Shown: positions 18,688-31,875 of the stretch, one piece after another
Layout: the number at the start of each line of letters is the position of its first letter
Numbering within the stretch: position 1 is the first letter of the stretch
NCBI RefSeq assembly: GCF_007845675.1
Contig: NZ_VOBR01000024.1
Location: 79,744 to 143,743 of the forward strand
Reading direction: 5' to 3'
DNA from: Lentzea tibetensis
GTDB lineage: Bacteria; Actinomycetota; Actinomycetes; Mycobacteriales; Pseudonocardiaceae
Length of the DNA: 64,000 nt
Notes under the pieces: generated by a model
What the model saw: only the letters and a program-made list of their open reading frames with translations
Told to the model about the DNA's origin: nothing
Database searches by the model: none
Position numbers and translations under genes: made by a program

Positions 18688-18726
18688 TTGACGTACCTCG
18701 CGGTGTGGGTAATTATGTGTGCACAC
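18688..18726 (+). promoter_or_regulatory. Sigma-70-type promoter of the 34-codon gene
   Basis: TTGACG at 18688-18693 and TAATTA at 18710-18715 are separated by 16 bases, one of the best promoter matches in the window. A perfect 10-bp palindrome GTGTGCACAC at 18717-18726 covers the expected transcription start and may be an operator. Confidence 0.65.
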
Positions 18727-18745
18727 ACCGAGCAGAGGAGCGGTC

Positions 18746-18850
18746 ATGACGAACAAGCAGATTGCGGGGATGCGGCAACTCGCCGCCATTGCCGCGCGCT
18801 TGCTCGCCTGGCGCCTGCAGCTGCTGCTGCACCGCGGCTCCCCGCTATGA
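18746..18850 (+). CDS. 34-residue amphipathic small protein of unknown function
   Basis: ATG 18746 has a strong ribosome site (GAGGAG about 5 bases upstream), its own promoter at 18688-18715 and a textbook terminator at 18871-18912. It is therefore a complete monocistronic transcription unit for a 34-residue peptide. The sequence begins MTNKQIAGMRQLAAIAARLL and continues with AWRLQLLLHRGSPL. It is a single basic amphipathic helix rich in Ala, Leu and Arg, not long enough for a clear transmembrane span. It could be a membrane-associated peptide, a leader peptide or a toxin-like peptide. It lies immediately upstream of the two tRNA-like genes. No known family is recognised. Confidence 0.6.
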   Translation: MTNKQIAGMRQLAAIAARLLAWRLQLLLHRGSPL

Positions 18851-18870
18851 CGTAGGACGTCAAGCCTGGG

Positions 18871-18912
18871 AGCCGCCCATCGGGAAACCGATCAGGGCGG
18901 CTTTCTTTGTTT
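18871..18912 (+). terminator. Rho-independent terminator of the 34-codon gene
   Basis: AGCCGCCC (18871-18878) pairs with GGGCGGCT (18895-18902). An inner ATCGG/CCGAT stem closes on GAAA with a two-base bulge. The stem is followed by TTTCTTTGTTT. The two mini-tRNA-like genes start 22 bases later. Confidence 0.9.
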
Positions 18913-18933: not shown

Positions 18934-19002
18934 ACCGGTGAGCTTCGGAAGCGGAACTGCCTCCAAAACAGTTTCCCGAGGGTTCGACTCCTTCCGCCGG
19001 TG
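18934..19002 (+). tRNA. Non-canonical tRNA-Trp-like gene (anticodon CCA) with mini D-arm
   Basis: The acceptor strands ACCGGTG (18934-18940) and CGCCGGT (18995-19001) pair fully (one G-U), with discriminator G at 19002. The D-arm is replaced by 14 nt containing a tiny hairpin GCTT-CGG-AAGC. The anticodon stem has five Watson-Crick pairs plus a C-A closing mismatch (AACTGC/ACAGTT) and loop CTCCAAA, giving anticodon CCA. That loop is identical to the one in E. coli tRNA-Trp. A 4-nt variable region and a T-arm GAGGG-TTCGACT-CCTTC follow. CCA is not encoded. Bacterial TrpRS identity features (G73, A1-U72, G5-C68, CCA) are present. It is not a normal tRNA because the D-loop GG needed for the elbow is missing. 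Confidence 0.7.
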
Positions 19003-19014
19003 CGCAGTGCAATT

Positions 19015-19083
19015 GGGGGACGCGCCGGCGCGCAGACGATCCTTGCAAGATCGTCGGGGAGGGTTCGACACCCTCGTCTTCCA
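19015..19083 (+). tRNA. Non-canonical tRNA-Ala-like gene (anticodon TGC) with mini D-arm
   Basis: The acceptor strands GGGGGAC (19015-19021) and GTCTTCC (19076-19082) pair with two G-U pairs, one of them the G3-U70 pair that identifies tRNA-Ala. The discriminator is A (19083). Fourteen nucleotides with a 3-bp mini-hairpin (GCG-CCGG-CGC) replace the D-arm. The anticodon stem has six pairs (ACGATC/GATCGT) and loop CTTGCAA, anticodon TGC. A 4-nt variable region and a perfect T-arm GAGGG-TTCGACA-CCCTC follow. Every segment length (7-14-6-7-6-4-5-7-5-7) equals that of the neighbouring Trp-like gene, so the two share one architecture. A terminator hairpin follows 17 bases later. Confidence 0.7.
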
Positions 19084-19100: not shown

Positions 19101-19125
19101 GCGGGCTCGTGCCGCACGAGCCCGC
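19101..19125. terminator. Strong hairpin terminator after the mini-tRNA pair
   Basis: GCGGGCTCGTG (19101-19111) pairs perfectly with CACGAGCCCGC (19115-19125) across a 3-nt loop. It follows the tRNA-like genes and faces the end of the convergent phosphodiesterase gene, so it can serve both. Confidence 0.8.
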
Positions 19126-31162: not shown

Positions 31163-31875
31163 CCCAGACGTTCGACCAAACCTTCGACAAGGACATCGCG
31201 GAGAAGGCTCAGGCGATCATCGCCCGCTACCCGCAGTCCAGGTCCGCGCTGCTGCCGATGCTGCACCTCGTGCAGTCGGTGCAGGGCTACGTCAGCCAGG
31301 ACGGCATCCGGTTCTGCGCGGCGCAGCTCGACCTGAGCGAGGCCGAGGTCAGCGCGGTTGCGACGTTCTACACCATGTACAAGCGCCGCCCGTGCGGCGA
31401 GCACCTGGTGAGCGTCTGCACGAACACGCTGTGCGCGGCACTGGGCGGCGACGCGATCTACGCGACCCTCAAGGACCACCTCAAGGTGGGCCACGAGGAG
31501 ACCGCGGGCGAGCCGGGCGAGCCGGGCTCGATCACGCTGGAGCACGCCGAGTGCCTCGCCGCGTGCGACCTCGGCCCGGTTCTCCAGGTGAACTACGAGT
31601 TCTACGACAACCAGACGCCGGAGAAGGCGCTGGAACTCGTGAAGGCGTTGCAGGAGGGGGAGAAGCCCGCCCCCACCCGCGGTGCGCCGCTCACCGACTT
31701 CAAGCAGGCGGAGCTCCAGCTCGCCGGGTTCTTCGAGGGCCGCGACGCGGACCTCGACGGACCCTCCGCCGCCGAGGAAACCCTGCGCGGGGCCACGATC
31801 GCCGCCGAGCGCGGCTGGACCGCACCGTCCACGCCGGACAACGCGGAGTTCCCGCCGCTCCCGGAAAAGAAGTAG
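31159..31875 (+). CDS. nuoE: NADH-quinone oxidoreductase subunit E
   Basis: The predicted protein has 238 residues. It is the 24-kDa subunit with a thioredoxin-like [2Fe-2S] (N1a) domain. Ligand Cys are seen in [14 protein letters not shown] and [17 protein letters not shown]-terminal tail of about 60 residues rich in Pro and acidic residues exceeds the E. coli protein and is common in actinobacteria. The start overlaps the nuoD stop by four bases. Confidence 0.95.

Follow-up and report, generated by a model that had tools for sequence, protein, structure and literature searches.

Divergent tRNA operons of Lentzea and related actinobacteria behind candidate ribosome-mediated attenuators

What is a second, oddly built tRNA-Trp, with an equally odd tRNA-Ala behind it, doing in a genome that also encodes canonical Trp(CCA) and Ala(TGC) tRNAs? 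The pair lies in a 64,000-nucleotide stretch of Lentzea tibetensis DNA (contig NZ_VOBR01000024.1, positions 79,744 to 143,743; hereafter the window), where an earlier note, made from the letters alone, had picked out two tandem tRNA-like genes at 18934..19083. These genes are real: they are conserved in Lentzea, and the stems of the tRNA-Trp covary. Because the canonical counterparts are present in the same genome, the window pair are extra copies.

Both genes lie on the plus strand, and neither encodes its CCA end. The first, at 18934..19002, specifies a mini-D tRNA-Trp(CCA) with anticodon loop CTCCAAA and G73, and it scores 91.1 bits with R2, our covariance model of mini-D tRNA-Trp. The second, at 19015..19083, specifies a mini-D tRNA-Ala(TGC) with loop CTTGCAA; its G3:U70 pair and A73 are what we take to be alanine identity elements. 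Each RNA has a 7-bp acceptor, a D-loop of 3 or 4 bases, a 5-bp T stem and a TTCGA-type T-loop. RNA folding returns a cloverleaf with a 4-bp D hairpin for both, which bears out the proposed mini D-arm. The fold-energy z scores are −2.7 for tRNA-Ala and −1.1 for tRNA-Trp, a value at which fold energy by itself is weak evidence for the latter. The anticodon loop has 7 nucleotides in the cloverleaf; in the folded tRNA-Trp it opens to 9 because the loop-adjacent pair 31:39 is a C·A mismatch, and this position is unpaired in 9 of 17 Trp copies. The anticodon stem of both RNAs is lengthened by a 26:44 pair, so the six-position stem described in the earlier note does contain an extra pair, but it is a normal stem plus 26:44. 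The same note held that the D-arm lacks the GG of the normal elbow. This is not so: the D-loops read CGG in tRNA-Trp and CGGC in tRNA-Ala, the GG falls in identical columns in 16 of the 17 aligned Trp copies, and with the GG retained a loss of the elbow does not follow.

Standard searches see these RNAs poorly. ARAGORN, run on the window, calls the second one tRNA-Ala(TGC) and misses the first. With the Rfam tRNA model RF00005, tRNA-Trp reaches 25.8 bits against a gathering cut-off of 29, and tRNA-Ala is absent from the matches of the window scan at that cut-off. By predicted structure both are tRNAs, yet they are outliers to RF00005. A further ARAGORN call, a tRNA-Trp at 31779-31849 on the minus strand, is backed by neither the Rfam tRNA model nor R2 and was taken as probably false. 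The anticodons CCA and TGC set the pair apart from tRNA-Pyl, which has CUA, and the acceptor/T-stem lengths of 7/5 in both RNAs set it apart from the 8/4 or 9/3 allo-tRNAs, a difference that had been recognized from the start. Behind the array, a hairpin read from the sequence at 19101..19125 on the plus strand, GCGGGCTCGTG-CCG-CACGAGCCCGC, likely ends the transcript, although it has no T run.

The two genes recur widely in relatives. Among 24 other Lentzea genomes, the tRNA-Trp gene is found in 23 and the tRNA-Ala gene in 20, at 85–98% identity. There both genes lie elsewhere, in an array of the order Trp-Gly(TCC)-Leu(GAG)-Leu(CAG)-Ala-Ile-Val (array A), from which single species have lost genes. 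Judged by this comparison, the window pair are what is left of a larger tRNA array. The idea of a special matched pair falls with it, since in relatives both tRNAs are accompanied by tRNAs for Gly, Leu, Leu, Ile and Val whose D regions have the ordinary length; we also rejected it on the ordinary D regions of most array tRNAs found by ARAGORN. An alignment of 17 different Trp copies, drawn from five genera, has 95.7% of its pair cells paired, and 8 of the 22 pairs show changes at both positions. Neither that number nor the covariation score was reached in 500 shuffles, and the number of further pair types was reached in 13 of 500. In the parts for which the earlier note had proposed compensatory changes as support for function, two pairs of the D mini-stem changed on both sides, both in copy L148, and 26:44 occurs as AU, CG and GU; the 31:39 position often fails to pair. 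A search with R2 found the tRNA in 42 of 249 Pseudonocardiaceae genomes, in 11 genera, at 58 bits or more; the next best match had 47.5 bits. Homologues with equal segment lengths therefore exist in relatives, and with structures kept in many genomes and stems that covary, the view that these are unusual tRNAs that look functional, and not randomly decaying ordinary ones, holds.

The arrays to which such tRNAs belong have a character of their own. At least 14 of 199 ARAGORN-found array tRNAs at other loci have a short D region, judged by anticodon position; this is a lower bound, because seven further mini-D Trp copies, missed by ARAGORN, come up with R2. A comparison was made for the 100 of the 199, all from other genera, whose anticodon occurs in both reference sets; 96 of them resemble Lentzea array tRNAs more closely than Lentzea canonical ones. 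Between Lentzea array tRNAs and canonical tRNAs of the same anticodon, median identities are 57–81%. By these sequence identities, the array tRNAs form a separate, divergent lineage beside the canonical set. Across loci the arrays cover most amino acids. Many hold Trp-CCA, Ser-CGA, Leu-CAG, Cys-GCA and Arg-ACG, kinds that presumably fit, in part, the targets of VapC-type toxins.

Several peculiarities of tRNA structure were seen along the way. The short variable arm of array Leu tRNAs was dropped as a special feature, since the canonical Lentzea Leu tRNAs CAA, TAA and TAG are equally short; these canonical tRNAs (L106, L109 and L111, in the window's genome) have short class I variable arms, which is unusual for bacterial tRNA-Leu. 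Arrays of other genera contain a mini-D tRNA-Met(CAT) (L146, L166, L189, L193), with the T-loop ATCGACA in three of the four. At L174:742-871, L175:522-648 and L176:527-644, inserts several tens of bases long split array tRNA genes close to the anticodon. The interruptions share a similar motif, about GCGGACATGGG...CTTCCT in L175 and L176, and the split genes look like cases of small introns in bacterial tRNA genes.

The most striking feature of the locus stands in front of the window pair. A promoter-like hexamer pair, TTGACG ... TAATTA/AATTAT, can be read at 18688..18716 (this and all features in this paragraph lie on the plus strand), which makes it probable that the array is transcribed from a promoter of its own, behind a paa-type operon. 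A Shine-Dalgarno-like AGAGGAG, also read from the sequence (18734..18740), precedes a predicted leader ORF of 34 codons, MTNKQIAGMRQLAAIAARLLAWRLQLLLHRGSPL, at 18746..18850. Its one Trp and six Ala codons match both tRNAs behind; for its 8 Leu and 4 Arg codons, no corresponding tRNA follows. Within the last leader codons (Gly-Ser-Pro) lies GGCTCCC (18836..18842), the 5′ arm of a candidate antiterminator. A small hairpin, TGACGT-AGG-ACGTCA (18848..18862), sits over the leader stop codon, and a terminator hairpin with a T-rich tract follows at 18868..18912 (hairpin −28.5 kcal/mol, z −6.0). The 5′ arm of this terminator, GGGAGCC (18868-18874), doubles as the 3′ arm of the antiterminator: in the folding of 18836-18890 it pairs with GGCTCCC (−27.9 kcal/mol, z −3.9). 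Without the terminator 3′ arm the window RNA folds as antiterminator, and with that arm present the terminator wins, so the two predicted folds are mutually exclusive. Our attenuator model, R1, gives 83.7 bits for 18836-18912. The pair had been described as lying between two terminators; the upstream one turns out to belong to an attenuator that has a leader ORF of its own. With a predicted leader ORF and ribosome-binding site just upstream of a terminator, and with control codons that match the tRNAs, counter-examples notwithstanding, the locus reads as a ribosome-mediated transcription attenuator. Nowhere in the window did a T-box match reach the Rfam cut-off.

The same arrangement recurs across the family. 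We searched 298 Pseudonocardiaceae genomes for the pattern GGCTCC-gap-GGAGCCRCCC-gap-GGGYGGYT and found it in 75, namely in all 25 from Lentzea and in 50 of the 273 from other genera. These genomes belong to 15 of 46 genera; a reversed control pattern matched about 15 of the 298. In 394 genomes of the class, the exact pattern is found in four, namely the window's own and three with chance-looking matches. A looser pattern gave 112 matches in Lentzea against 119 for its reversed control and hence was not used. We fetched 70 matches (69 of the 70 non-Lentzea matches and one from Lentzea), of which at least four look like chance. Directly behind 59 of the 70 are tRNA genes, and a simple search found a leader ORF in 66. 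In 47 attenuators, the stop-codon hairpin and terminator are paired in 96.2% of cells and 40 cells changed on both sides, a count and score reached by none of 500 shuffles; pairs with changes at both positions number five, a value reached by 49 of 500. Both the stop-codon hairpin and the terminator have covarying pairs in this set. Covariation in the antiterminator arms was not counted on pattern matches, because the pattern itself required GGCTCC and GGAGCC. At loci not chosen by their arms, the arms differ from the pattern and can nevertheless pair, as judged by eye: GGTTCTCC/GGAGAGCC in L264, GGTTCCTGG with CCAGGAACC in L293, GGTGCC with GGCACC in L277, and GGCTTCTGG with CCAGGAGCC in L296.

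Protein genes also adjoin some of these loci. In three genomes (L170, L171, L172) the attenuator stands directly before an HNH-type gene, assigned by Pfam in L170 and by eye in L171 and L172, and ARAGORN finds no tRNA there. In the window's genome and in genome G024, a leader is followed by a tRNA with an ATT anticodon and then by an R2K ATP-grasp gene (E 6e-29 and 3e-27, respectively). At L118, L222:1537-2352 and L223:859-1669, this row of attenuator, tRNA-ATT and R2K gene lies downstream of an ORF that by eye resembles a DNA alkyltransferase. In G316, the gene behind an array encodes a RING protein assigned to the MXAN_6230/SCO0854 family (E 1e-94, but below the model's cut-off), and similar-looking ORFs follow L175 and L176 (by eye).

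Across these loci, leader codons match the tRNAs behind them. Our permutation test left out four fetched loci without a leader ORF (L149, L210, L211, L212) and seven with a leader but without an ARAGORN tRNA (L153, L170, L171, L172, L175, L176, L177). At the 59 loci tested, the fraction of cognate leader codons is 0.337, against 0.199 when arrays are shuffled among leaders (z 11.7); at 45 nonredundant loci it is 0.344 against 0.208 (z 10.3). Neither value was reached in 20000 shuffles, although the shuffles overstate independence because related loci share descent. When the seven Trp tRNAs that R2 recovered and ARAGORN did not are included, z becomes 11.8 and 10.2. Of the amino acids of an array, 95% have a codon in the leader, against 74% after shuffling (45 loci). 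Single leaders illustrate the match: MTNTRRCCSRSQGSPP precedes Arg and Cys tRNAs, MTRRCYAMFLGMEEKRGSTPPS a Glu tRNA, and MKSKLECQSAKLELSLELDRLLV a series of Glu, Leu, Leu, Gln, Ser, Lys and Cys tRNAs. These values were obtained with a simple leader finder and with ARAGORN, which misses some mini-D tRNAs.

The match also holds out of sample. R2 found 14 mini-D Trp loci outside the attenuator pattern, and at 13 of them R1 places an attenuator upstream, at 48.5–83.1 bits; L270 is the one without an attenuator by R1. Three loci were excluded from the test: L270 and L271 because they lack an attenuator, and L272 because it belonged to the first set. Since ARAGORN misses some mini-D copies, a Trp tRNA was entered for each out-of-sample array; with Trp left out of the count, the leaders score 0.308 against 0.175 (z 5.9, n=13). 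Here MKATGFAVAAIVADDRDDLFFWHLTCAVSP precedes Trp, Asp and Phe tRNAs, and MTDITRTRRTVAAVLSSSSLPLLWQSLLLSRDSPP precedes Trp, Leu and Leu tRNAs. Over both sets, 28 of the 30 leaders that precede a Trp tRNA contain a Trp codon, compared with 9 of the remaining 42; the two exceptions, L168 and L264, have a Trp tRNA behind and no Trp codon in the leader. Which of several synonymous codons a leader uses agrees only modestly with the anticodons of its array (298 of 434 against 268.7 expected, z 3.3). Comparison between loci thus supports the view that leaders are enriched in codons for the tRNAs of their own operon.

Within Lentzea, leaders and arrays appear to change together. The array A leader of the relatives, MLAKAQLAGWRILALIAGGLLAVAWGSTP or near, carries Leu, Ala, Gly, Ile and Trp codons and in many species Val, and the tRNAs behind it carry the same amino acids. 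Similarity to the window's terminator led to a second array, B, at other places in Lentzea. Its leader is rich in Arg, Ser, Pro, Phe and either Asp or Lys, and behind it lie tRNAs for Arg(ACG), Asp, Pro, Phe, Ser, Ser, Asn or Lys. Among the loci of 16 array B leaders, two loci with tRNA-Lys have 2 and 3 Lys codons and the 14 others have none; four loci with tRNA-Asp have 1, 4, 4 and 5 Asp codons, and 10 of the 12 others have none. The B_L077 leader has four Asp codons and no tRNA-Asp call behind it; a remnant read by eye makes it seem that this locus lost its tRNA-Asp gene. Asparagine does not follow the rule: seven Lentzea B arrays contain tRNA-Asn(GTT) with no Asn codon in their leaders, and leaders before tRNAs called Asn(ATT) likewise have none (L118 translated by eye). 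The strict leader motif gave no leader for A_L003, A_L017, A_L020 and B_L072. Compared by eye with the leaders of both arrays, the window leader starts and ends as in array B and has the middle of array A, as if the sensing part had changed along with the tRNAs.

Beyond the Pseudonocardiaceae the signal is fainter. R1 finds weak matches (24.7–33.9 bits, E up to 0.01) in 24 of 246 genomes of the class besides the window's own, where it scores 83.7 and 79.5 bits. In the family of genome G374, 37 of 120 genomes have weak matches, and all matches outside the Pseudonocardiaceae stay at or below 36.5 bits. Of 42 loci read there, 37 have no tRNA array just downstream of the match. The remaining five (L254, L277, L281, L293, L296), all from G374's family, have one directly behind. 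These arrays are large, with up to 13 tRNA genes, and their attenuators are divergent. One leader, MSAYRTTLLPQPGLPARPATGVGGLAPPEASV, precedes Ala, Pro, Gly, Gln, Gly and Leu tRNAs; another, MNAYEAAALPWRELSVRWLPAGGGLAPPEAAV, precedes Arg, Ala, Pro, Gly, Leu, Gly and Leu tRNAs. For the five leaders, of which that of L293 may be cut by a contig end, the cognate fraction is 0.590 against 0.414 for random sets of the same size, reached by 1 of 20000; shuffling arrays among the five loci gives rank 3 of 120, which is weak. Given five such arrays with matching leaders, we dropped confinement to the Pseudonocardiaceae.

These observations suggest how the locus might work. In attenuation, a missing charged tRNA stalls the leader ribosome, and the operon gets read. 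Here, the leader ORF would be translated behind the polymerase. As long as the leader codons, chiefly those for Trp and Ala, are well served by tRNAs, the ribosome would reach the stop codon and cover GGCTCCC; GGGAGCCGCCC would then form the terminator, and the tRNA genes would remain untranscribed. Should those tRNAs run short, the ribosome would stall upstream, GGCTCCC could pair with GGGAGCC, no terminator would form, and the tRNAs would be made. Each operon would in effect sense a shortage of what it supplies. Since the product is a tRNA, such a loop is useful when the tRNA itself is missing. Bacteria do meet tRNA-cleaving toxins and defense systems, and the divergent shapes of the array tRNAs may escape a toxin, defense nuclease or competitor that cuts canonical tRNAs. 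The case for tRNA loss over amino-acid shortage as the trigger is one of argument: tRNA synthesis cures the loss of a tRNA and not the lack of an amino acid, and the array lineage is divergent beside the canonical set, which makes cleavage or inactivation of canonical tRNAs the likeliest trigger. We hold it likely that the window locus is a backup tRNA operon under ribosome-mediated transcription attenuation, most plausibly released by such an attack. The leader, the exclusive folds, the codon match, the conservation and the redundancy in the window's genome all come directly from comparison of sequences. From them we infer expression, stalling, charging, the trigger and the resistance of the array tRNAs.

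The same parts could be assembled differently. Attenuated tRNA operons might add translation capacity under amino-acid limitation, fast growth or synthetase-inhibitor stress and have nothing to do with replacing damaged tRNAs. An attenuator would sense a lack of charged tRNA whatever its cause, and the anticodons are ordinary, with G3:U70 and A73 in the window tRNA-Ala. However, extra tRNA is of no use to a cell short of the amino acid or of the synthetase, canonical copies are already in the window's genome, and the array tRNAs are strongly divergent, not copies of canonical genes; we consider this rather unlikely. A use outside the ribosome, in aminoacyl transfer by peptide aminoacyl-tRNA ligases or in cell-wall or antibiotic synthesis, would suit a Trp and Ala pair, since both are donors for known ligases of this type, and enzyme genes such as the R2K ATP-grasp gene adjoin some arrays. 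But arrays span most amino acids, their content matches the codons of a predicted translated leader, and no peptide aminoacyl-tRNA ligase was noticed, by eye, among the ORF translations around the window locus, so we regard such a use as very improbable.

Two other readings would take the tRNAs and the leader apart. If the mini-D tRNAs were decaying or recently acquired phage-like genes without regulation, the leader and terminator would belong to the upstream operon. The sub-threshold Rfam score of tRNA-Trp and the variation of array content through gene loss would be expected of such genes, and the tRNA-Ala of Mycobacterium phage Myrna does give a weak match, over 53 bases and 15% of the query. 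That phage tRNA is annotated at 74 nucleotides, however, which is an ordinary length, and there is no match among 72,556 plasmid records. On one weak phage match and no plasmid match, a phage or plasmid origin was rejected. The structure, moreover, covaries in five genera and is present in 11, and leader and attenuator accompany tRNA arrays at many loci, which leaves decay or acquisition extremely unlikely. Alternatively, the leader peptide could itself be the product, small and hydrophobic or basic like a type I toxin, and its match to the tRNAs a compositional accident. The array A leader is indeed hydrophobic and conserved in Lentzea; yet leaders differ between operons in step with tRNA content, and the last leader codons are able to pair with the terminator arm. 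We give this reading hardly any credence.

A backup operon under attenuation would combine features of several known systems. Amino-acid operons with trp, his, leu and ilv leaders are subject to ribosome-mediated attenuation, and share with the present locus a translated leader with control codons, an antiterminator and terminator with one arm in common, and control by charged tRNA. Here, in contrast, the controlled genes are tRNAs, and one leader covers several amino acids that track the operon's tRNAs. T-box riboswitches also let tRNA status control transcription, whereas sensing here would proceed through a translated ORF. Like our pair, tRNA-Pyl has a six-pair anticodon stem and a small D-arm; unlike tRNA-Pyl and allo-tRNAs, the pair has ordinary Trp and Ala anticodons, a 7-bp acceptor and a 5-bp T stem. 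Arrays or clusters of tRNA genes have been described in mycobacteria, phages and mobile elements (PMC5966550, PMC6515697, PMC6409571), and they too place dense tRNA genes beside a canonical set; ours are chromosomal, are conserved across a genus and have in front of them an attenuator whose leader matches the array. The accessible portions of those papers mention no attenuator. Phage tRNAs are reported to evade tRNA-targeting defenses through anticodon-loop changes, and spare tRNAs have been proposed as an answer to such defenses (PMC10264068). Those phage tRNAs are likewise divergent spares proposed to replace cleaved ones, but the tRNAs studied here are bacterial and apparently inducible, and their changes, with putative resistance, lie in the D-arm and anticodon stem. 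In Salmonella, an RtcR-controlled RNA repair operon is reported to be induced by tRNA fragments (PMC7790460). It too answers tRNA damage with tRNA-related products, through a fragment-binding activator and repair, where we propose leader stalling and replacement. In the open-access literature, a scope outside which most subscription papers and preprints fall, we found no description of leader-attenuated tRNA operons.

To our knowledge, bacterial tRNA genes are generally thought to be constitutive or controlled by growth rate. The operons described here appear instead to sense, codon by codon, a lack of what they encode, and would apply the attenuation logic that has been known for longest to a kind of target new to it, tRNA operons. 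By analogy with the spare tRNAs of phages, we infer that they may be the bacteria's own spare set. A broader picture is possible, and we offer it tentatively, as somewhat more apt to fail than to hold in full. The Pseudonocardiaceae and at least one more actinobacterial family would keep an anciently separate tRNA set in silent operons, each with a leader peptide that lists the tRNAs behind it. Stalling after an attack by a toxin, nuclease or competitor would free the missing kinds in forms that escape the attack through a mini D-arm and an altered anticodon stem, and related switches would drive HNH nuclease, R2K ATP-grasp and RING companions of the same stress response. If true, these operons would be a bacterial-side answer to tRNA-targeting immunity and toxins and a natural multicodon stress sensor readable from sequence, and they would provide bacterial tRNAs with a minimal D-arm open to direct tests of charging and ribosome use.
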